Part shown: positions 11,894 through 47,810 of the stretch, piece by piece | Layout: every line of letters starts with the position of its first letter | How positions within the stretch are numbered: position 1 is the first letter of the stretch | Notes under the pieces: generated by a model | What the model was told of the DNA's origin: nothing | The model's input: only the letters and a program-made list of their open reading frames with translations | Database searches by the model: none | Origin: Pseudomonas triticicola | Lineage (GTDB): Bacteria; Pseudomonadota; Gammaproteobacteria; Pseudomonadales; Pseudomonadaceae | Reading direction: 5' to 3' | DNA: 64,000 nt | NCBI RefSeq assembly: GCF_019145375.1 | Contig: NZ_JAHSTX010000001.1 | Span: 2,517,001-2,581,000, forward strand | Made by a program: the position numbers and the translations under genes

Positions 11894-11991
11894 GGTGCCC
11901 CCACCAGCCACACCCCGGCACACAATGTTCCCGCTGTGGCTGCTTCCTTCCGGATCTGACCAGGTTCACGGGTAATCGTTGCGGGGGGACC
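11894..11991 (-). ncRNA. ffs: 4.5S RNA, signal recognition particle RNA
   Basis: The reverse strand contains the near-invariant SRP domain IV: CAGATCCGGAAGGAAGCAGC with the GGAA tetraloop and the asymmetric internal loop bound by Ffh. The termini pair (5' GGTCCCCCC with 3' GGGGGCACC), giving an RNA of about 98 nt, the usual small bacterial SRP size. It acts with Ffh to target nascent membrane proteins. Mature ends are inferred from pairing and may be off by a few nucleotides. A T-run terminator follows. Confidence 0.95.
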
Positions 11992-12112
11992 GATGGGGTC
12001 ACCATAACGACGCTTGCCTGTCGGCGAGCCGCGCCATTGTACCTGTCTGAGATGAACTTACAACCGTTGGTTGCAGATTAAAAATACCAACAGGTTCAAG
12101 GACATGCGCTGA

Positions 12113-37532: not shown

Positions 37533-38061
37533 GGTAATTCCAGAGCCTTTGGCTAGTGGGCCGGCAACGCATTGCCGACCCGGTTTTCAATCAGGCGCTT
37601 TTCTGAAAGAGCGCCCGCGTGGCACGAAGGTGTGCCGTTCCACCCCGCTGCTCGGGTTAAAAGAGCTTAGATGCCGGGACAGATAAAAAAGTTGGTGCAA
37701 CAAAAAGACTGAAAGCGACCCTTCGTCGAATAGTACCCAAGCGCAATCGTGGGTCATTCTCACTAAAGGATTAACCCGCTGACTCAGCGGGGCGCCGATC
37801 ATACCGGGGTTTGTGCATTGAACGTTGAATAAATACGCGGTTACTTATCGCCATAGCATCCTTTACGTTACGTGCTTATGACAAAACGATCATTCCCTCG
37901 GTGTGACTCATTGGTTAGAACTGAGCACAGGTTGACGTCGCAACGGCGTCAACACCTTGGCTCGCCACGCCGGCAGCGAGCCGCACGATGGCAGGTTATT
38001 TCTGCCAGACCTCAATTGAGGTCAACGCGACACTACAGTCAACAAGTGAGGGAAACACCCT
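37533..38061. other. Long divergent intergenic region upstream of rmf
   Basis: 529 nt between rlmL and rmf with lower GC than its surroundings. A short reverse-strand frame at 37587-37802 lacks family features and a convincing ribosome-binding site. The region should hold the rmf and rlmL promoters and a long rmf 5' leader, but I could not mark a promoter with confidence. A small RNA here is possible but unsupported. Confidence 0.4.
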
Positions 38062-39684: not shown

Positions 39685-39700
39685 TGGCATATGCCTTGCA
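39685..39700 (+). promoter_or_regulatory. Sigma-54 promoter of nasS
   Basis: TGGCATATGCCTTGCA has GG at 39686-39687 and GC at 39698-39699 with exactly 10 nt between, and matches the -24/-12 consensus TGGCAC-N5-TTGCA at all but one position. Transcription would begin near 39711, about 100 nt before the nasS start. Confidence 0.75.
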
Positions 39701-39754
39701 CCACCCCGCTCATCAGTCTGCCGACCAATGACGGCGCGCAGGCCAGGACAATGG

Positions 39755-39803
39755 CGTCGTCCCCGGGTTTTGCCTGCGCAGAATCCGCGACGACGTTTTT
39801 TTT
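39755..39803 (+). terminator. Leader terminator (attenuator) before nasS
   Basis: CGTCGTC (39755-39761) can pair with GACGACG (39789-39795), directly followed by eight T. It ends 10 nt before the start codon, against the GAGG ribosome-binding site. A terminator between promoter and gene points to attenuation. I did not find a clear pair of hexaloop hairpins here. Confidence 0.6.
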
Positions 39804-39813
39804 GAGGTAGCGT

Positions 39814-41025
39814 ATGAACGAAACGTCCTTGGGGCCTCTGGCCTGGGTCAATGGCAGCGATGCGCCGGAAAAGAGCGCGATCAATCTCGGCTTCATGGCG
39901 CTGAGCGACTGCGCCTCGGTGGTGGTCGCCGCCACTCAGGGCTTCGCCCAGCCCTACGGCCTGACCCTGAACCTCAAGCGTCAGGCATCATGGGCCAACC
40001 TGCGCGACAAACTGGTCAGCGGCGAACTGGATGCCGCGCACAGCCTGTACGGGCTGATTTATGCGGTGCACCTGGGCATCGGCGGCGTCGCCCCGACCGA
40101 CATGGCGGTGCTGATGGGCCTGAACCAGAATGGCCAGAGCCTGAACCTGTCCCATGGTTTGCAACAGGCTGGCGTGAACAGTCCTGAAGCGCTCGATCGG
40201 CATGTGCACCAAAGCCGCGCAAAACTGACCTTCGCCCAGACCTTTCCCACCGGCACCCATGCGATGTGGCTTTATTACTGGCTGGCGAGCCAGGGCATTC
40301 ATCCATTGCAGGACGTCGACAGCGTGGTGGTGCCGCCGCCGCAAATGGTTGCGCACCTGCAAGCCGGGCGCATCGACGGCTTTTGCGTCGGCGAACCGTG
40401 GGCGGCCAGCGCCGTGCAGCAGGATCTTGGCTTCACCCTGGCGACCAGCCAGAGCATCTGGCCCGACCACCCGGAAAAAGTCCTCGGCTGCACCCGGGAA
40501 TTCGTCGAGCAATACCCAAACACCGCGCGGGCGCTGGTCATGGCCATTCTTGAGGCCAGTCGCTTCATCGAAGAAAGCCCGGAAAACCGCCGCAGTACCG
40601 CGCAATTGCTCAGCGCCACCGAATACCTCGACACCCCCGCCGCGTGCATCGAGCCGCGTTTTATGGGTGACTACGCCGATGGCCTCGGCAATCGCTGGCA
40701 GGATCCGCATGCGCTGCGTTTTCATGGCGATGGCGAGGTCAATCTGCCCTACCTTTCCGACGGCATGTGGTTCATGACCCAGTTCCGTCGCTGGGGTCTG
40801 TTGCGCGAGGATCCGGATTATCTGGCCGTCGCCCGCCAGGTTCAGCGTCTGGATCTGTATCGCGAGGCAGCGAGCGCTGTCGGTATTGCGGCTTCGCACG
40901 CCGACCTGCGCAGCAGCCAGTTGCTCGACGGCAAGGTCTGGGACGGCAGCGATCCGGCGGGCTATGCGCGCAGTTTCAAACTGCATGCCCTGAACGACGC
41001 CGCCCCCCTTCTCGCCCAGCGCTGA
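39814..41025 (+). CDS. nasS: Nitrate-sensing regulator NasS
   Basis: A 403-residue protein of the NrtA/CmpA nitrate-binding fold (INLGFMALSDCASVVVAATQGF, FAQTFPTGTHAMWLYYWLASQG, GRIDGFCVGEPWAASAV). It lacks a signal peptide or lipobox, so it is a cytoplasmic sensor and not a transport component. In studied bacteria NasS holds NasT inactive without nitrate or nitrite and releases it when they bind. nasT starts 15 nt downstream. A sigma-54 promoter and a leader terminator precede the gene. ATG start at 39814 with GAGG 6 nt upstream. Confidence 0.9.
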   Translation: MNETSLGPLAWVNGSDAPEKSAINLGFMALSDCASVVVAATQGFAQPYGLTLNLKRQASWANLRDKLVSGELDAAHSLYGLIYAVHLGIGGVAPTDMAVLMGLNQNGQSLNLSHGLQQAGVNSPEALDRHVHQSRAKLTFAQTFPTGTHAMWLYYWLASQGIHPLQDVDSVVVPPPQMVAHLQAGRIDGFCVGEPWAASAVQQDLGFTLATSQSIWPDHPEKVLGCTREFVEQYPNTARALVMAILEASRFIEESPENRRSTAQLLSATEYLDTPAACIEPRFMGDYADGLGNRWQDPHALRFHGDGEVNLPYLSDGMWFMTQFRRWGLLREDPDYLAVARQVQRLDLYREAASAVGIAASHADLRSSQLLDGKVWDGSDPAGYARSFKLHALNDAAPLLAQR

Positions 41026-41040
41026 CAGGAGACCGCGAAC

Positions 41041-41616
41041 ATGTTGCGCATTCTGCTGATCAACGACACCGCGAAAAAAGTCGGACGCCTCAAAGCGGCG
41101 CTGACCGAGGCCGGCTTCGAGGTAATCGACGAGTCCGGCCTGACCATCGACCTGCCGGCGCGCGTCGAAACGGTGCGCCCGGACGTGATCCTGATCGATA
41201 CCGAGTCACCGAGCCGCGATGTCATGGAGCAAGTGGTACTGGTCAGCCGCGACCAGCCCCGGCCGATCGTGATGTTTACCGACGAACATGACCCGGGGGT
41301 GATGCGTCAGGCGATCAGGTCCGGGGTCAGTGCCTACATCGTCGAAGGCATTCACGCACAACGGTTGCAGCCGATTCTCGATGTGGCGATGGCGCGCTTC
41401 GAGAGTGACCAGGCTTTGCGCGCGCAATTGCAGGCCCGTGACCAGCAACTGGCCGAGCGCAAGCGCATTGAACTGGCCAAGGGTTTATTGATGAAGATGA
41501 AGGATTGCAACGAGGAAGAGGCCTATACGCTGATGCGCCGCCAGGCCATGAGCCGCCAGCAGAAGCTGATTCAGGTGGCGGAGCAGATCATTGCCATGAG
41601 TGAGTTGCTGGGCTGA
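41041..41616 (+). CDS. nasT: ANTAR-domain antiterminator NasT
   Basis: A 191-residue response-regulator-like protein. The N-terminal receiver-type domain (MLRILLINDTAKKVGRLKAAL, with VILIDTES at the phosphoacceptor position) is followed by a C-terminal ANTAR RNA-binding domain (KRIELAKGLLMKMKDCNEEEAYTLMRRQAMSRQQ split over about 140-175). It is expected to bind paired hexaloop hairpins in leaders and prevent termination; two such leaders are found in front of nasA and nirB. It is co-transcribed with nasS. The acidic pair of classical receivers is partly replaced (IND), in line with control by NasS and not by phosphorylation. Confidence 0.93.
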   Translation: MLRILLINDTAKKVGRLKAALTEAGFEVIDESGLTIDLPARVETVRPDVILIDTESPSRDVMEQVVLVSRDQPRPIVMFTDEHDPGVMRQAIRSGVSAYIVEGIHAQRLQPILDVAMARFESDQALRAQLQARDQQLAERKRIELAKGLLMKMKDCNEEEAYTLMRRQAMSRQQKLIQVAEQIIAMSELLG

Positions 41617-41640
41617 AATCTTCGCTGCAAATCAAGAGTC

Positions 41641-41820
41641 CCCTCACCCTAGCCCTCTCCCGGGGGGAGAGGGGACCGATCGGGGGATGCTCTCGAAGTA
41701 CGCCAACCAGTGATTTCTGCAGTGAATCCATAATCGACTCGGTCGTTCAGGTCGATGTTTGACGTCAGACACCTCAAGTCAGTCCCCTCTCCCTCAGGGA
41801 GAGGGTTAGGGTGAGGGGCT
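41641..41820. repeat. CCCTCACCCTAGCCCTCTCCC-type inverted repeat
   Basis: Arms at 41641-41674 and 41782-41820 are near-perfect complements (CCCTCACCCTAGCCCTCTCC and its inverse). Same family as 30300-30449. It separates nasT from the nasA promoter and may act as the nasST transcript end. Confidence 0.88.
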
Positions 41821-41836: not shown

Positions 41837-41852
41837 TGGCACAAATCTCGCT
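41837..41852 (+). promoter_or_regulatory. Sigma-54 promoter of nasA
   Basis: TGGCACAAATCTCGCT has GG at 41838-41839 and GC at 41850-41851, 10 nt apart, with a perfect TGGCAC -24 element and a weaker -12. The start of transcription would be near 41863, just before the first leader hairpin. Confidence 0.7.
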
Positions 41853-41866
41853 ATGTAAACCGCACA

Positions 41867-41907
41867 GGTAACCAACGGCGGTTGCCCCACCTACGACAAA
41901 GACGTCG
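41867..41907 (+). promoter_or_regulatory. NasT (ANTAR) two-hairpin RNA target in the nasA leader
   Basis: Hairpin 1 has stem GGTAACC (41867-41873) with GGTTGCC (41880-41886) and hexaloop AACGGC. After a 7-nt linker, hairpin 2 has stem CGAC (41894-41897) with GTCG (41904-41907) and hexaloop AAAGAC. Both loops have A at position 1 and G at position 4, the known ANTAR recognition rule. Hairpin 2 shares bases with the terminator stem that follows, so the two cannot form together. Confidence 0.72.
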
Positions 41908-41958
41908 CTCACCCCGTTCGCCCCCCCGGCGAATCAGGTAGCGGCGTTTTTGCGTTTT
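41898..41958 (+). terminator. Leader terminator (attenuator) before nasA
   Basis: AAAGACGTCGCT (41898-41909) pairs with AGCGGCGTTTTT (41940-41951), including two G-U pairs, enclosing a TTCGCC/GGCGAA inner hairpin. It is followed by GCGTTTT. It lies about 90 nt before the nasA start and overlaps ANTAR hairpin 2. Confidence 0.68.
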
Positions 41959-42050: not shown

Positions 42051-43262
42051 ATGAATTCAAGCTTCTGGAAATCCGGCCATACCCCGACCCTGTTCGCGGC
42101 CTTCCTGTATTTCGACCTGAGCTTCATGGTCTGGTACCTGCTCGGCCCGCTGGCGGTGCAGATTGCCGCCGACCTGCACCTGACCACCCAGCAGCGCGGC
42201 CTCGTCGTCGCCACGCCGATTCTCGCCGGCGCGGTGTTGCGCTTCGCCATGGGCATGCTCGCCGATCGCTTGTCGCCGAAGACCGCCGGGCTGATCGGCC
42301 AGGTCATCGTCATCTGCGCGCTGTTCGGCGCCTGGAAACTGGGTATCCACAGTTATGAACAGGCGCTGATCCTCGGCCTGTTCCTCGGCATGGCCGGCGC
42401 GTCGTTCGCCGTGGCCCTGCCGCTGGCCTCGCAATGGTATCCGCCAGAGCACCAAGGCAAAGCCATGGGCATCGCCGGCGCGGGCAACTCCGGCACCGTG
42501 TTCGCCGCGCTGCTGGCGCCAGTGATTGCCGCCGCGTTCGGCTGGAGCAATGTCTTCGGTTTCGCCCTGATCCCGCTGGTTTTGACCTTGGTGCTGTTCG
42601 CCCTGTTGGCAAAAAACGCCCCGCAGCGGCCGAAACCGAAAGCCATGGCCGACTACTTCAAGGCCCTCGGTGATCGCGACAGCTGGTGGTTCATGTTTTT
42701 CTACAGCGTCACCTTCGGCGGCTTCATCGGCCTGGCCAGCGCCCTGCCCGGTTACTTCAACGATCAATACGGTCTGAGCCCGGTGACCGCCGGCTACTAC
42801 ACCGCTGCCTGCGTGTTCGGCGGTAGCCTGATGCGGCCATTGGGTGGCGCGCTGGCCGATCGCTTCGGCGGCATCCGCACTTTGCTGGCGATGTACACCG
42901 TCGCTGCCATCTGCATTGCAGCGGTGGGCTTCAATCTGCCAAGTTCCTACGCTGCGCTGGCGCTTTTCGTCTGCACCATGCTCGGCTTGGGCGCCGGCAA
43001 CGGTGCGGTTTTCCAACTGGTGCCGCAGCGTTTTCGTCTGGAGATCGGCGTGATGACCGGGCTGATCGGCATGGCCGGCGGTATCGGCGGCTTCGCCCTC
43101 GCGGCGGGCATGGGCGCGATCAAGCAAAGCACCGGCAGCTATCAACTGGCGCTGTGGTTGTTCGCCAGCCTGGGTGTGTTGGCTTGGTTTGGCCTGCACG
43201 GCGTCAAGCGTCGCTGGAGAACCACCTGGGGCTCGGCGGCAGTCACAGCGGCGCGGGTCTGA
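42051..43262 (+). CDS. nasA: Nitrate/nitrite MFS transporter
   Basis: A 403-residue inner-membrane carrier of the NarK/NasA branch of the major facilitator superfamily with about 12 hydrophobic segments. It shows the nitrate-carrier motifs around LRFAMGMLADRLSPKTAGL (about 65-83), the Gly-rich AGAGNSGTVFAALLAPV (about 142-158) and a second Gly-rich segment GLGAGNGAVFQLVPQRF (about 315-331). It should import nitrate for the reductases downstream. I chose the ATG at 42051 (MNSSFWKSG) with GAGGTG 8 nt upstream. A 190-nt attenuated leader precedes it. The kinase gene starts 7 nt downstream. Confidence 0.93.
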   Translation: MNSSFWKSGHTPTLFAAFLYFDLSFMVWYLLGPLAVQIAADLHLTTQQRGLVVATPILAGAVLRFAMGMLADRLSPKTAGLIGQVIVICALFGAWKLGIHSYEQALILGLFLGMAGASFAVALPLASQWYPPEHQGKAMGIAGAGNSGTVFAALLAPVIAAAFGWSNVFGFALIPLVLTLVLFALLAKNAPQRPKPKAMADYFKALGDRDSWWFMFFYSVTFGGFIGLASALPGYFNDQYGLSPVTAGYYTAACVFGGSLMRPLGGALADRFGGIRTLLAMYTVAAICIAAVGFNLPSSYAALALFVCTMLGLGAGNGAVFQLVPQRFRLEIGVMTGLIGMAGGIGGFALAAGMGAIKQSTGSYQLALWLFASLGVLAWFGLHGVKRRWRTTWGSAAVTAARV

Positions 43263-43269
43263 GGCCTCA

Positions 43270-44940
43270 ATGGCTCTGCAACTGAGCTTCGCCGAAGCCA
43301 GCGCCACCGGCCCGCGCGCGGAGAATCAGGACGCCCTGCGCTCGGTGACACCGGCGCCGGCACTGGCGGTGAGCAAGGGATATCTGTTCGCCATCGCCGA
43401 CGGCGTCAGCCAGTGCGCCGATGGCGGCCTCGCCGCGCGTTCGACCTTGCAGGCGCTGGCGCTGGACTACTACGCGACATCGGAAACCTGGAGCGCGGCC
43501 CAAGCGCTGGATCGCCTGCTGCTCGCGCAAAATCGCTGGCTGCAGGCCAACGGCGGCGGGCAACCGTTGCTGACCACAGTCAGCGCGCTGGTGATGCGCG
43601 GTCGACGCTTCACCCTCGCCCACGTCGGCGATTGCCGGGTCTATCGCTGGCACGCCGAGCGCTTGCAGCGCATCAGCGAGGATCACGTCTGGGAGCAACC
43701 GGGCATGCAACACGTGCTCAAGCGTGCGCTCGGGCTCGATCAGCATCTGGTCCTGGATTTCCTCGACGGCGAACTGCGTGAGGGCGAAAGCTTCGTGCTG
43801 CTCAGCGACGGCGTCTGGTCGACCCTGGGCGATACCGCGATCGCCGCGATTCTGCGCGATCAAGTGGATCTGCCCAGCGCGGCGCAAACCTTGGTCAACG
43901 CCGCGCATCTGGCCGGCAGTCAGGACAACGCCAGTGCCCTGCTGGTGCGCGTCGATGCGCTGGGCGAAGCGAGCATCGGCGATGCGCTGGTGCAATTGCA
44001 GCAATGGCCACTGCCGCCAACGCTGAAACCCGGGCAAGCGTTTGAAGGCTGGCAGGTGCAAGGCATCATCGGCCAGAGCCAGCAATCACTGCTGTATCGC
44101 GTGCTCGATAGTCAGGGCCAGCCTTGGCTATTGAAGACGTTGCCGGCGCGGCTCGCCGACGACCCGCAGGCCGGGCAGGCGCTGCTGTCGGAAGAATGGT
44201 TCCTCAAGCGCGTGGCCGGCCGGCATTTTCCGCAAATCCATGCCTGCACTCAGCGTCAACATTTGTATTACGTGATGCGCGAATACGCCGGGACGACGCT
44301 GGCCGACGTGTTTCAACACAGCGGCCCGTTGCCTTTGGCGCAGTGGCTGGACATCGCCGAACGGCTATTGCGCGCGGTCGGGCTGCTGCATCGGCGGCAG
44401 ATTCTGCATCGCGACATTAAACCGGAAAACCTGCTGCTGGATGACGACGGCGAGCTGCGCCTGCTGGATTTCGGCCTGGCTTATTGCCCGGGACTGTCCG
44501 AGGACGCGCCGTCGACCCTGCCAGGAACACCTAGTTTCATCGCCCCGGAAGCGTTTCGCGGCGAACCACCGAGTGCACAACAGGATTTGTATTCTGTCGG
44601 TGTCACTCTCTATTACCTGCTCACCGGGCATTTTCCCTATGGCGAAATCGAGGCGTTCCAGCGGCCCCGATTTGGCGTACCGGTGAATGCCAGTCGCTAT
44701 CGCCCGGACCTGCCGGAATGGCTGGCGCAAAGTCTGGAACGCGGCGTCGCCGCCGATCCGCAGCAACGCTTTGAAACCGCCGAAGAGTGGCTGCTGGTGC
44801 TGGAACAGGGTGAGCGGCAAAGTTTGAGTGTGCGGCCCCGGCCTTTGTTGGAACGGGAGCCGTTGAAGGTCTGGCGGACCATGGCGCTTCTGGCATTGCT
44901 CGGGAATGTGGTGCTGCTGGTTTTGTTGTTTCACAGTTGA
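43270..44940 (+). CDS. Fused PP2C phosphatase / serine-threonine protein kinase
   Basis: A 556-residue membrane-anchored regulator. Residues 1-235 are a PP2C phosphatase (ENQDAL, FAIADGVSQCADGG, LAHVGDCRVYRW, VLLSDGVWSTL, SQDNASALLVRVD; the metal-binding aspartates are present). Residues about 260-530 are a Hanks-type kinase: degenerate Gly loop IIGQSQQSLLYRV, lysine in WLLKTLPARL, catalytic HRDIKPENLLLDD, DFG in LLDFGLA, and IAPEAF. A C-terminal membrane segment (ALLALLGNVVLLVLLF) anchors it with the catalytic domains in the cytoplasm. The ATG at 43270 follows GAGG. It lies 7 nt after nasA, so it is co-transcribed with the nitrate transporter; its targets are unknown. A similar gene lies in this position in other pseudomonads. 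Confidence 0.93.
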   Translation: MALQLSFAEASATGPRAENQDALRSVTPAPALAVSKGYLFAIADGVSQCADGGLAARSTLQALALDYYATSETWSAAQALDRLLLAQNRWLQANGGGQPLLTTVSALVMRGRRFTLAHVGDCRVYRWHAERLQRISEDHVWEQPGMQHVLKRALGLDQHLVLDFLDGELREGESFVLLSDGVWSTLGDTAIAAILRDQVDLPSAAQTLVNAAHLAGSQDNASALLVRVDALGEASIGDALVQLQQWPLPPTLKPGQAFEGWQVQGIIGQSQQSLLYRVLDSQGQPWLLKTLPARLADDPQAGQALLSEEWFLKRVAGRHFPQIHACTQRQHLYYVMREYAGTTLADVFQHSGPLPLAQWLDIAERLLRAVGLLHRRQILHRDIKPENLLLDDDGELRLLDFGLAYCPGLSEDAPSTLPGTPSFIAPEAFRGEPPSAQQDLYSVGVTLYYLLTGHFPYGEIEAFQRPRFGVPVNASRYRPDLPEWLAQSLERGVAADPQQRFETAEEWLLVLEQGERQSLSVRPRPLLEREPLKVWRTMALLALLGNVVLLVLLFHS

Positions 44941-45030: not shown

Positions 45031-45153
45031 CGGCAGCCCAATCACCACAACTCTATGTGCCTGAACGCTCCACGAACGGGCAACCCGCTTCGATTCGGTG
45101 CAAAAAATCAACGCTATAACCGCGCCTAACCAATAAAACCGCGCTTCGCGTAG

Positions 45154-45170
45154 TTGGCACAACCACTGCA
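45154..45170 (+). promoter_or_regulatory. Sigma-54 promoter of nirB
   Basis: TTGGCACAACCACTGCA has GG at 45156-45157 and GC at 45168-45169, 10 nt apart, with a perfect TGGCAC. Transcription would start near 45181, about 20 nt before the first ANTAR hairpin. Confidence 0.77.
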
Positions 45171-45199
45171 TTACCCTTTTCACCATACATAAAGCCCAA

Positions 45200-45238
45200 C
45201 CTTCAACGACGAAGGCTGCGCTTCCCGAGAGAACGGGA
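45200..45238 (+). promoter_or_regulatory. NasT (ANTAR) two-hairpin RNA target in the nirB leader
   Basis: Hairpin 1 has stem CCTTC (45200-45204) with GAAGG (45211-45215) and hexaloop AACGAC. After a 7-nt linker, hairpin 2 has stem TCCCG (45223-45227) with CGGGA (45234-45238) and hexaloop AGAGAA. Both loops have A1 and G4. The linker length equals that in the nasA leader. In P. aeruginosa the equivalent leader has been reported as the nitrate-assimilation RNA NalA (from memory). Confidence 0.8.
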
Positions 45239-45245
45239 CCAGGAC

Positions 45246-45287
45246 AAAGGCGTCCTCGCTAGGCAACTAGCGGGACGCCTTTTTTTG
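45246..45287 (+). terminator. Leader terminator (attenuator) before nirB
   Basis: AAAGGCGTCC-T-CGCTAG pairs with CTAGCG-GGACGCCTTT around a GCAA tetraloop (16 bp with one bulge), followed by a run of T. This strong terminator lies 70 nt before the nirB start and directly after the two hexaloop hairpins. Confidence 0.88.
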
Positions 45288-45356
45288 TTTGCGCAAAATT
45301 TGTCGAGCAAGGCCCGACGGCCCACCAGAGGCCAGCCGCAGCTCCCGGAGAACCTG

Positions 45357-47810
45357 ATGAAAAAACTCAAACTGGTGATGATCGGCAATGGCATGGCCGG
45401 GGTGCGTACCCTGGAAGAACTGCTCAAGCTGAGCGACGAGCTCTACGACATCACCGTCTTCGGCGCCGAACCGCACACCAACTACAACCGCATCCTGCTG
45501 TCGCCGGTGCTGGCCGGCGAGCAGACGTTCGAAGAGATCGTCCTCAACGACCTCGACTGGTACCTGGAAAACAACATCAAATTGCTGCTCAACCGCAAAG
45601 TGGTGGAGATCGACCGGGTCAAACGCCGAGTGATTGCCGAGGACGGCACCGAAGCCGAGTACGATCGCCTGCTGATCGCCACCGGCTCGACCCCGTTCAT
45701 CCTGCCAATCCCCGGCAACACTTTGCAGGGCGTGATCGGTTACCGCGACATCGCCGACACCCAGGCCATGATCGACACCGCCAGGACCCACAAGCACGCC
45801 GTGGTCATCGGCGGCGGCCTGCTCGGCCTCGAAGCGGCCAACGGCCTGATGCTGCGCGGCATGCACGTCACCGTGGTGCACCTCGGCGAATGGCTGCTGG
45901 AGCGGCAACTGGACAAGACCAGCGGCCAGCTTCTCCAATCGGCGCTGGAATCCCGTGGCCTGCATTTTCGCCTGTGCGAACAGACCCAAGCCTTGCACGA
46001 CGCCGGCAATGGCCGGGTCGGGTCGGTGCAGTTCAAGAACGGCGACATCATTCCTGCCGATCTGGTGGTGATGGCCGCCGGCATTCGCCCCAACACCGAA
46101 CTGGCAGAAAAGGCCGGCATTCCGTGCAATCGCGGGATTCTGGTCAACGACACCCTGCAAACCTACGACCCGCGCATCTACGCAATCGGCGAATGCGCCA
46201 GCCATCGCGGCATCGCCTACGGTCTGGTTGCGCCGCTGTTCGAACAAGCCAAGGTCTGCGCCAATCACCTCGCGCAACTGGGTTTCGCTCGCTATCAGGG
46301 CTCGGTGACTTCGACCAAATTGAAAGTCACCGGCATCGACCTGTTCTCCGCTGGCGACTTCATGGGCGGCGAAGGTACCGAGACCATCACCCTCTCCGAC
46401 CCGATCGGCGGCGTGTACAAAAAACTGGTGATCAAGGATGACGTGCTGGTCGGCGCCTGTCTGTATGGCGATACGGCAGATGGTGGTTGGTATTTCCGGC
46501 AGATTCGTGAGAATCACGCCATCGGCGAGATCCGCGATCACCTCATGTTCGGCGAAAACGCTTTAGGCGACGTAGGACATCAGGGCCAGGACAAAGCCAT
46601 GGTCATGGCCGACAGCGCCGAAGTCTGCGGCTGCAACGGTGTGTGCAAGGGCACCATCGTCAAGGCGATTCAGGAACACGGCCTGTTCAGCGTCGATGAA
46701 GTCAAGAAACACACCAAGGCTGCCAGCTCCTGCGGTTCCTGCGCCGGCCTTGTTGAACAGATCCTGATCAATACGGTGGGTGGCGCGGCCGACGTCAAAC
46801 CGAAAAGCGAAAAAGCCATCTGCGGTTGCAGCGACCTCAACCACGGGCAGATTCGTCAGGCGATCCGTGAGGAACACCTGCTGACCATCGCCGAGACGAT
46901 GAGTTACCTGAACTGGCGCACACCCAATGGCTGCGCGACCTGTCGCCCGGCGCTCAACTACTACCTGATTTCCACCTGGCCGGGCGAGGCCAAGGATGAT
47001 CCGCAATCGCGTCTGATCAACGAACGCGCCCACGCCAACATCCAGAAGGACGGCACCTATTCGGTGGTGCCGCGCATGTGGGGCGGCGTGACCAACCCAT
47101 CGGAACTGCGGCGGATCGCCGATGTGGCCGACAAGTACAACGTGCCGATGGTCAAGGTCACCGGCGGTCAGCGCATCGACTTGCTGGGGATCAAGAAACA
47201 GGATCTGCCCGGCGTCTGGAAAGACCTCGACATGCCGTCCGGCCACGCCTACGGCAAATCCATCCGCACCGTGAAAACCTGCGTCGGCAGCGAGTTCTGC
47301 CGCTTCGGCACGCAGAACTCGACGCAACTGGGCATCGAACTCGAGCACGACCTGTTCAACATGTGGTCGCCGCACAAAGTGAAGCTGGCCGTGTCCGGTT
47401 GCCCCCGCAACTGCTCGGAAGCGGGCATCAAGGACGTAGGAATTATCGGCGTCGACTCCGGCTGGGAGATGTACATCGGTGGCAATGGCGGGATCAAGAC
47501 CGAAGTCGCCGAGTTCTTCGTCAAGCTCAAGACTGCCGAAGAAGTCCGTGAATACAACGGCGCGTTTCTGCAGCTCTACCGCGAAGAAGCCTTCTACCTC
47601 GAGCGCACCGTGCATTACCTGCAACGGGTCGGCATGGAGCACATCAAGAAGAACGTGCTCGAAGACGCCGAGCGGCGCAAGGCCCTGAATGAGCGCCTGC
47701 AATTCTCCCTGTCGTTCGAACAGGACCCATGGAAAGAGCGCCTGGCGCAGCCGCAACTGAAGAAAGAATTCGACGTGATCCCCGTGAAAAACCTGGAGGT
47801 GCCCGCATGA
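45357..47810 (+). CDS. nirB: Assimilatory nitrite reductase, large subunit
   Basis: An 817-residue cytoplasmic enzyme that reduces nitrite to ammonium with NAD(P)H. An FAD/NAD module comes first (MIGNGMAGVRTLEELL, then VVIGGGLLGLEAANGLMLRG). Two BFD-type [2Fe-2S] modules follow (CGCNGVC ... CGSC near 424-463; CGCSDLN ... CATC near 495-545). The sulfite/nitrite reductase domain ends with CVGSEFCRFG and CPRNC, which bind the 4Fe-4S/siroheme pair. I chose the ATG at 45357 with GGAG upstream; earlier codons lie in the leader. Its stop overlaps the nirD ATG by 4 nt. Confidence 0.96.
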   Translation: MKKLKLVMIGNGMAGVRTLEELLKLSDELYDITVFGAEPHTNYNRILLSPVLAGEQTFEEIVLNDLDWYLENNIKLLLNRKVVEIDRVKRRVIAEDGTEAEYDRLLIATGSTPFILPIPGNTLQGVIGYRDIADTQAMIDTARTHKHAVVIGGGLLGLEAANGLMLRGMHVTVVHLGEWLLERQLDKTSGQLLQSALESRGLHFRLCEQTQALHDAGNGRVGSVQFKNGDIIPADLVVMAAGIRPNTELAEKAGIPCNRGILVNDTLQTYDPRIYAIGECASHRGIAYGLVAPLFEQAKVCANHLAQLGFARYQGSVTSTKLKVTGIDLFSAGDFMGGEGTETITLSDPIGGVYKKLVIKDDVLVGACLYGDTADGGWYFRQIRENHAIGEIRDHLMFGENALGDVGHQGQDKAMVMADSAEVCGCNGVCKGTIVKAIQEHGLFSVDEVKKHTKAASSCGSCAGLVEQILINTVGGAADVKPKSEKAICGCSDLNHGQIRQAIREEHLLTIAETMSYLNWRTPNGCATCRPALNYYLISTWPGEAKDDPQSRLINERAHANIQKDGTYSVVPRMWGGVTNPSELRRIADVADKYNVPMVKVTGGQRIDLLGIKKQDLPGVWKDLDMPSGHAYGKSIRTVKTCVGSEFCRFGTQNSTQLGIELEHDLFNMWSPHKVKLAVSGCPRNCSEAGIKDVGIIGVDSGWEMYIGGNGGIKTEVAEFFVKLKTAEEVREYNGAFLQLYREEAFYLERTVHYLQRVGMEHIKKNVLEDAERRKALNERLQFSLSFEQDPWKERLAQPQLKKEFDVIPVKNLEVPA

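Follow-up and report, generated by a model that had tools for sequence, protein, structure and literature searches.

The nitrate assimilation locus of Pseudomonas triticicola raises the question of how its nitrate transporter gene nasA is switched, and whether the short leader in front of it is read by the regulator NasT encoded next door. In the window (the whole stretch of 64,000 nucleotides analysed here, from a genome of 5.82 Mb) the genes stand in the order nasS, nasT, nasA, a PP2C-protein kinase gene, nirB, nirD and assimilatory nitrate reductase; from their domains, gene order and general knowledge we take three of them to be nasS, nasT and nirD. The NasS-NasT pair is encoded just upstream of the nasA leader, and NasT gave the single ANTAR match of the whole genome.

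39814..41025, + strand: nasS, nitrate sensor (NMT1_2; domain match and gene order)
41041..41616, + strand: nasT, receiver-like and ANTAR domains (receiver match sub-threshold, 29.4 bits against a cut-off of 30.2)
42051..43262, + strand: nasA, NarK-family nitrate/nitrite transporter (TIGR00886, 312.2 bits against a cut-off of 311.7)
45285..47810, + strand: nirB, nitrite reductase large subunit (open reading frame as listed)

The true start of nirB probably lies further inside than the listed 45285. The protein encoded between nasA and nirB (43174-44940) carries PP2C phosphatase and Ser/Thr kinase domains. Elsewhere in the window the rmf RNA (RF01755) was found at 37911-38043 (118.6 bits) and the bacterial small SRP RNA (RF00169) at 11899-11995 on the - strand (75.3 bits). 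A plasmid search with the nasT-nasA region as query returned zero matches.

The first-pass annotation of this DNA had described, within 41837-41958, a promoter, two A1/G4 hexaloop hairpins joined by a 7-nt linker, and a terminator whose stem shares 41898-41907 with hairpin 2. All these elements were found at those places: the linker was read at 41887-41893, and RNAfold of 41863-41951 started the terminator stem at 41898.

41837..41852, + strand: sigma-54-type -24/-12 promoter of nasA, TGGCAC-N5-TCGCT, one mismatch to TGGCAC/TTGCW (sequence; GG-N10-GC in relatives)
41838..41908, + strand: Rfam RF03032 narK RNA (79.7 bits); the initial 25 nt of the match precede the predicted start of the transcript
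41867..41886, + strand: hairpin P1, 7 bp, GGTAACC/AACGGC/GGTTGCC, hexaloop AACGGC with A1 and G4 (sequence, fold, covariation)
41887-41893, + strand: linker, 7 nt (sequence)
41894..41907, + strand: hairpin P2, 4 bp, CGAC/AAAGAC/GTCG, hexaloop AAAGAC with A1 and G4, overlapping the terminator (sequence, fold)
41898..41951, + strand: intrinsic terminator ending in a T-run; it and P2 exclude each other (folds)

In the RNAfold structure of 41863-41951 (-40.6 kcal/mol) P1 was accompanied by the long terminator stem, which began at 41899 when one T fewer was included, whereas the leader part ending at 41907 folded alone into P1 and P2 (-13.9 kcal/mol). The terminator spans about 41898-41946 and is followed by T-runs at 41947-41951 and 41955-41958. 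P2 alone was worth -3.1 kcal/mol against -29.4 kcal/mol for the terminator stretch, hence P2 would have to be held by a protein, a requirement of the attenuation model. A scan with a simple terminator rule found nothing at the nasA leader, in our opinion because its T-run comes after an outer stem interrupted by an internal loop, a layout outside the rule. The leader has the features of a two-hairpin ANTAR target, i.e. stems of at least 3 bp, hexaloops with A at position 1 and G at position 4, and a P2 that overlaps an intrinsic terminator; its 7-nt linker falls within the functional range of 5-12 nt given for Enterococcus faecalis eut leaders in the passages available from PMC3369931.

Taken by itself the sigma-54 motif was discounted as evidence, since three sites with at most one mismatch were found in the window and 3.15 were expected; all three stand directly before the nasA, nasS and nirB leaders. 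Of the 162 copies detected by RF03032, a model that itself includes the promoter, 160 have GG-N10-GC; with the RNA-only model R1, 52 of 56 fetched loci have TGGC-N9-GC, three of the four misses being R1 matches without a T-run that were discarded as chance. The predicted transcript start is 41863, 12 nt past the -12 element and approximately 4 nt before P1. In P. stutzeri the NfiR start was mapped 29 bp, not 12 bp, from the sigma-54 site (PMC6606865, seen in part); this spacing applied to nasA would place the start inside P1, unless the NfiR end is due to processing. A consensus scan for sigma-70-pattern promoters gave nothing at the nasA leader.

NtrC-like activator sites were sought within 300 bp of each promoter. 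The best one at nasA matched 8 of 12 positions, which 89% of shuffles equalled, none at nasS beat the shuffles, and the best at nirB (9/12) was equalled by 31% of them; across the window 9 such sites were found and 12 expected. Among relatives the nasA, reductase, nirB and unassigned classes exceeded shuffles in NtrC-like scores, these being related and not independent sequences, and the nasS class did not. In the eight best-scoring rows of the class with near-identical cores (one of them L262) the NtrC-like site starts 102 bp before the promoter. In P. stutzeri, footprinting placed NtrC in front of nfiR, called a P11 homologue (PMC6606865, in the part seen). Control of most leaders by NtrC, the nasS class excepted, is thus plausible, and at nasA NtrC may bind further away than 300 bp. 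Between nasT and the nasA promoter lies a repeat element of approximately 180 bp with inverted ends (CCCTCACCC...), at about 41640-41819, which stops approximately 17 bp before the promoter; as a genome query it gave 115 matches in both directions, with some 40 long copies by reading of the list. In some relatives the gap from nasT to the promoter is only about 3-8 bp, and the element may have displaced an activator site. MIR1858 and Antizyme matches on its inverted ends were far below cut-off and were dropped.

We consider it very likely that the nasA element is a nitrate-gated transcription-attenuation leader read by the ANTAR protein NasT; NasT binding, termination and the activator are what we infer for this organism. 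Under nitrogen limitation sigma-54 RNA polymerase would start approximately 4 nt before P1. Without nitrate NasS would hold NasT, P2 would yield to the stronger terminator and transcription would stop. With nitrate NasS would release NasT, which would bind the A1/G4 loops of P1 and P2, and a P2 held by NasT would keep its own 3′ arm out of the terminator, so that nasA is transcribed. According to the passages cited, nitrate-driven release of NasT from NasS, binding of NasT to the nasA leader and the need for a leader hairpin are established in other species: NasT shifts nasA leader RNA (PMC3795266), Paracoccus no longer grows on nitrate once hairpin HI of its nasA leader is mutated (PMC5424462), and the two-hairpin model of ANTAR targets has been set out (PMC3369931). 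Further sources, likewise seen in part, are PMC6759348, PMC7261876, PMC12316311 and PMC10977744.

RF03032 is a cis-regulatory Rfam family. The nasA leader matched it over the full length (71 nt, positions 1-72; 79.7 bits, E 5.2e-15, curated cut-off 43.2) and was the best match of the genome; 13 weak ones among its 16 matches were set aside (including loci L003, L004, L005, L007 and L008). The Rfam model includes the promoter, pairs only P1, leaves P2 unpaired and stops before the terminator, whereas we read the element as promoter plus NasT target: with the predicted start, about 25 of the 71 matched nt would be promoter DNA. RF03032 matches occurred in 83 of the 119 family genomes (77 over cut-off) and in 22 of 398 genomes of a phylum sample (17 over cut-off), NasT in 83 of the 119 (E up to 1e-10) and in 116 of the 398 (E up to 1e-20). 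Within the family 80 genomes had both, three NasT only, three RF03032 only and 33 neither (Fisher p 1.7e-22, a value overstated by the relatedness of the genomes). The three with RF03032 only all scored below its cut-off; in the three with NasT only the R1 candidates reached 40.7 bits, 29.5 bits and, in one, nothing above 20.3. Of the 22 phylum-sample genomes with RF03032, 21 had NasT at the cut-off applied, the exception (G318) carrying the element before a nasS-like gene. No RF03032 match was found in 95 of the 116 phylum-sample NasT genomes, therefore this form of leader belongs mainly to one family.

The genes behind the leader were classified for 162 copies, namely 150 family matches listed, 10 from the phylum sample and two weak ones of the own genome (before nasS and nirB). 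Among these matches listed the next gene was nasA in 79, nasS in 43, nitrate reductase in 22, nirB in two and another gene in 16. Twelve of the 16 are near-identical in the core (five variants: L057, L135, L136, L138-L140, L143, L149, L150, L153, L154, L156); three of the genes behind them were read, and part of one matched the Alginate_exp outer-membrane family in Pfam, perhaps a nitrate porin. The remaining copies (L141, L145, L155, L167) precede a PilJ-domain protein in one case, a PilJ-HAMP protein in two (one tested) and, in the fourth, a protein with a chemoreceptor-like stretch below the Pfam cut-off. These neighbours hint that in some relatives NasT may control nitrate entry and sensing as well.

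A failure of the stems to covary in relatives had been named in the first-pass annotation as a refuting condition; P1 covaries strongly, against that condition, whereas P2 varies too little for covariation to speak for or against it. Covariation was examined in 59 cores, chosen by a rule requiring A1 and G4, so that their loops are no evidence. In P1 7 of 8 pairs were double-changed. In P2, a nearly invariant stem, one of the four pairs was double-changed, two never vary and one departs only through unpaired A.C cells; the second P2 pair is A.C in 8 of 59 rows, and the RNAalifold consensus omits P2. The whole structure had 148 double-change cells against 43 in shuffles, and its covariation score was 0.54 against 0.14, far above slid versions; neither value was reached in any of 500 shuffles. 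Counted by pairs, 8 had a double change, no better than the 7.7 of the shuffles. P1 exceeded the shuffle maximum (n=300) in each of four leader classes, with 106 double-change cells against 56 before nasS, 42 against 27 before nasA, 17 against 12 before the reductase and 16 against 11 before nirB, in a test that placed the loops by pairing, which favours structure.

When hairpins were picked ignoring loop letters, loop 1 had A1 in 176/189 and G4 in 176/189 leaders (25 of 214 gave no 4-bp P1 under the picking rule), and loop 2 had A1 in 209/214 and G4 in 214/214, the picking of P2 requiring flanking GAC and GYC. These counts are partly built in, as the leaders were found with models favouring A1/G4 loops. 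In 177 of the 181 leaders with a T-run the 3′ arms of P2 and of the terminator pair with each other, compared to 38% when the intervening stretch was shuffled; this count excludes by rule 33 of 214 leaders without a T-run, although several among 12 inspected have a shorter one. Three R1 matches without a sigma-54-type site or T-run (L265-L267) were kept out of the loop, overlap, NtrC and co-occurrence counts, and in one leader (L049) the P2 form sought was absent. Reductase-class leaders have C in the middle of the P2 3′ arm, pairing as C-G in the terminator in 23/23, whereas other classes have U. In leaders of this class such as L250 the C weakens P2 (A.C at the second pair), a change that may shift the balance towards termination, with the balance tuned gene by gene.

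Two further leaders, not mentioned in the first-pass annotation any more than the Rfam entries were, occur in the same locus. The one before nasS was recognized from a sub-threshold Rfam score, relatives and folds.

39685..39803, + strand: second leader, before nasS (RF03032 25.8 bits, below cut-off)
39685-39700, + strand: its sigma-54-type site, one of three in the window
about 39716-39743, + strand: P1, loop AATGAC (fold)
39747-39758, + strand: P2, weak, 3 bp, loop AATGGC (fold)
to 39803, + strand: terminator and T-run (fold, -27.1 kcal/mol)

Its 25.8 bits are the second best RF03032 score of the genome, under the cut-off of 43.2, and it is no member of that family. With R1 it scored 22.2 bits (rank 6 of the genome); a genome without NasT, RF03032 or RF00625 match (G001) reached 25.9 bits and a genome with a NasR-type protein (G105) 27.6, therefore a value near 22 bits is within background and the nasS leader rests on context, not on score. 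Its antiterminator part prefers a different hairpin in folding. The context consists of the 43 copies before nasS among the 162, which include its own and three from outside the family, and of 17 R1 matches in the genus, chosen for lying one nasST length before a nasA leader, all of which (17/17) precede nasS. The nasS leader probably acts by the same mechanism as that of nasA, and nasST would then be autoregulated through its own leader, making the operon self-activating when nitrate is present. Among the papers listed by our literature search, which had limited coverage and missed key papers, none dealt in its title or opening abstract with a NasT leader before nasST, an absence that proves little.

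The third leader, before nirB, coincides with an RNA that Rfam files as a small RNA gene, sRNA P11.

45143..45288, + strand: third leader, before nirB, Rfam RF00625 sRNA P11 (133.4 bits, full-length, cut-off 70)
45155-45170, + strand: its sigma-54-type site, one of three in the window
45200-45215, + strand: P1, loop AACGAC (fold)
45223-45238, + strand: middle hairpin Pm, loop AGAGAA (fold)
45241-45256, + strand: P2, loop AAAGGC (fold)
45280-45286, + strand: terminator T-run (fold)

The RF00625 match itself spans 45143-45279 of the window. Of the 119 family genomes 83 contain an RF00625 match, which is over cut-off in 70; the best 30 loci all lie directly before nirB on the same strand, and the overlapping terminator was present in 19/19 nirB leaders tested. 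The nirB leader very probably works like that of nasA, which differs from RF00625 P11 in having no middle hairpin and no match over the cut-off. Pm, picked ignoring loop letters, has A1 in 46/47 and G4 in 45/47 P11 leaders while positions 2, 3 and 6 vary; the 47 were not de-duplicated, comprise 12 different loops and were found with models favouring A1/G4. Judged from the letters, this conservation is the ANTAR pattern. Twenty more distant P11 leaders comprised 17 from NasT genomes and three from genomes with a NasR-type protein, and in 18 of the 20 the fetched stretch also matched nirB. Among the 17, seven had an exact A1/G4 hexaloop Pm, the hairpin being altered, lengthened or missing elsewhere and having C1 in one; four of those seven, from one genus, have the Pm stem CCTG/CAGG instead of CCCG/CGGG, changed on both sides. 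The spacing from P1 to Pm is 4-8 nt (7 in the window) and from Pm to P2 only 2-4 nt. In E. faecalis eut leaders linkers of 5-12 nt functioned and 3 or 14 nt worked poorly (PMC3369931, in the part seen), so P1-Pm, in the published range, looks the better two-hairpin site. Such a P1-Pm site would survive termination, and terminated P11 could bind and sequester NasT.

That the narK RNA and sRNA P11 form one sigma-54-driven class of NasT leaders, P11 being both the attenuated nirB leader and a NasT decoy, is a proposal that we make tentatively and with more doubt than confidence. EutX/Rli55-type RNAs reportedly sequester an ANTAR protein; P11 would resemble them in that its terminated form could keep the A1/G4 hairpins P1 and Pm, and differs from them in that sequestration of NasT by it is hypothetical. 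If the decoy reading is true, it would form with the nasST leader a nitrate-gated loop of self-activation and titration, in which nitrate sets the P11 level.

A natural comparison is offered by five family genomes of four genera (G007, G013, G039, G046, G105) that have a narK or P11 match without NasT. Each of them has a protein that combines NIT and ANTAR domains, the arrangement of NasR. Their six leaders (L151, L157, L158, L326, L327, L328) keep P2, promoter and terminator, and five of the six lack, ahead of P2, any hairpin of 3 bp or more with an A1/G4 hexaloop, L328 having a weak one of 3 bp. Elsewhere 198 of 211 leaders have such a hairpin and 13 do not; the scan covered 62 nt in the six NasR-type leaders and 45 nt in the others. 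Few as five genomes are, this comparison speaks in favour of NasT reading the P1 loop.

Several observations count against the NasT mechanism, namely the near-invariant P2, nasA and nasS promoters without a clear NtrC-like site, the weak nasS leader, the NfiR start mapped 29 bp from the sigma-54 site and the 95 NasT genomes of the phylum sample lacking RF03032. Other explanations were weighed as well. The leader could consist of conserved promoter DNA and an ordinary terminator that cuts short transcripts running in from the repeat element or from nasT, its hairpins having no regulatory role. The repeat directly upstream, the little covariation of P2 and the portion of the Rfam match taken up by promoter are what such an arrangement would bring with it, but P1 covaries in four separate leader classes, its loop keeps A1/G4 while the stem changes, and the element tracks an ANTAR protein. 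None of these is expected of a passive terminator, therefore they count against it, and we regard it as highly improbable. An unlikely but less remote reading lets the regulator target P2 alone, P1 only protecting the 5′ end of the transcript. It would explain why P2 is near-invariant, why P2 survives in NasR-type genomes where P1 is without A1/G4, and why P1 begins so close to the predicted start; it does not account for the retention of A1 and G4 in loop 1, and in the EutV system deletion of P1 abolished induction (PMC3369931, as far as seen).

It is also very unlikely that NasT acts elsewhere and the element serves as a metabolite riboswitch or, in the way described for P11 and NfiR, as a trans-acting small RNA. 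The filing of RF00625 as a small RNA gene suits the latter, and so do the published accounts, in the parts seen: P11 has been called a regulator of the nitrogen assimilation operon and reported to influence Caenorhabditis elegans behaviour in P. aeruginosa PA14 (PMC12080996), and NfiR, said to be its P. stutzeri homologue, was described as pairing with nifD mRNA (PMC6606865). The title of PMC11942167 reports failure to replicate part of the P11/C. elegans behaviour work. Against this reading stand the uniform position of the best RF00625 loci before nirB, the A1/G4 hexaloops in P11-type leaders and the overlapping terminator in every nirB leader tested; a role in trans would moreover be compatible with one in cis. 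The metabolite riboswitch was dropped, as the ANTAR signature leaves nothing further to explain.

As a kind, the proposed nasA switch is ordinary, ANTAR attenuation by NasS-NasT being already established in other species. It resembles the targets of EutV, NasR and AmiR (passages of PMC3369931) in its two short A1/G4 hexaloop hairpins, the terminator overlap and an ANTAR protein in the genome, and is unlike them in that P1 has 7 bp and lies close to the predicted 5′ end, downstream of a sigma-54-type promoter; the distance from GG to loop 1 varies little in the nasA class (33-37 nt). With the nas leaders of Azotobacter vinelandii, Paracoccus denitrificans and P. aeruginosa, the subject of papers cited by PMC3795266, PMC5424462 and PMC12316311, it shares the regulator pair, the kind of target genes and the leader hairpins, but here three leaders stand in one locus, one of them before nasST. 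The same limited search, with key papers outside its coverage, found no paper on narK RNA or RF03032, which again proves little.

What this analysis adds is the tie of two Rfam families to one regulator, a probable leader of nasST itself, the third hairpin of P11 and a wider list of possible targets. Both narK RNA and P11 look like NasT leaders by sequence, and the link to NasT gives P11 a testable mechanism: it predicts that nitrate acts on the expression of P11 and of nasA by way of NasT. Should the leader before nasST function as a NasT target, induction by nitrate would reinforce itself.
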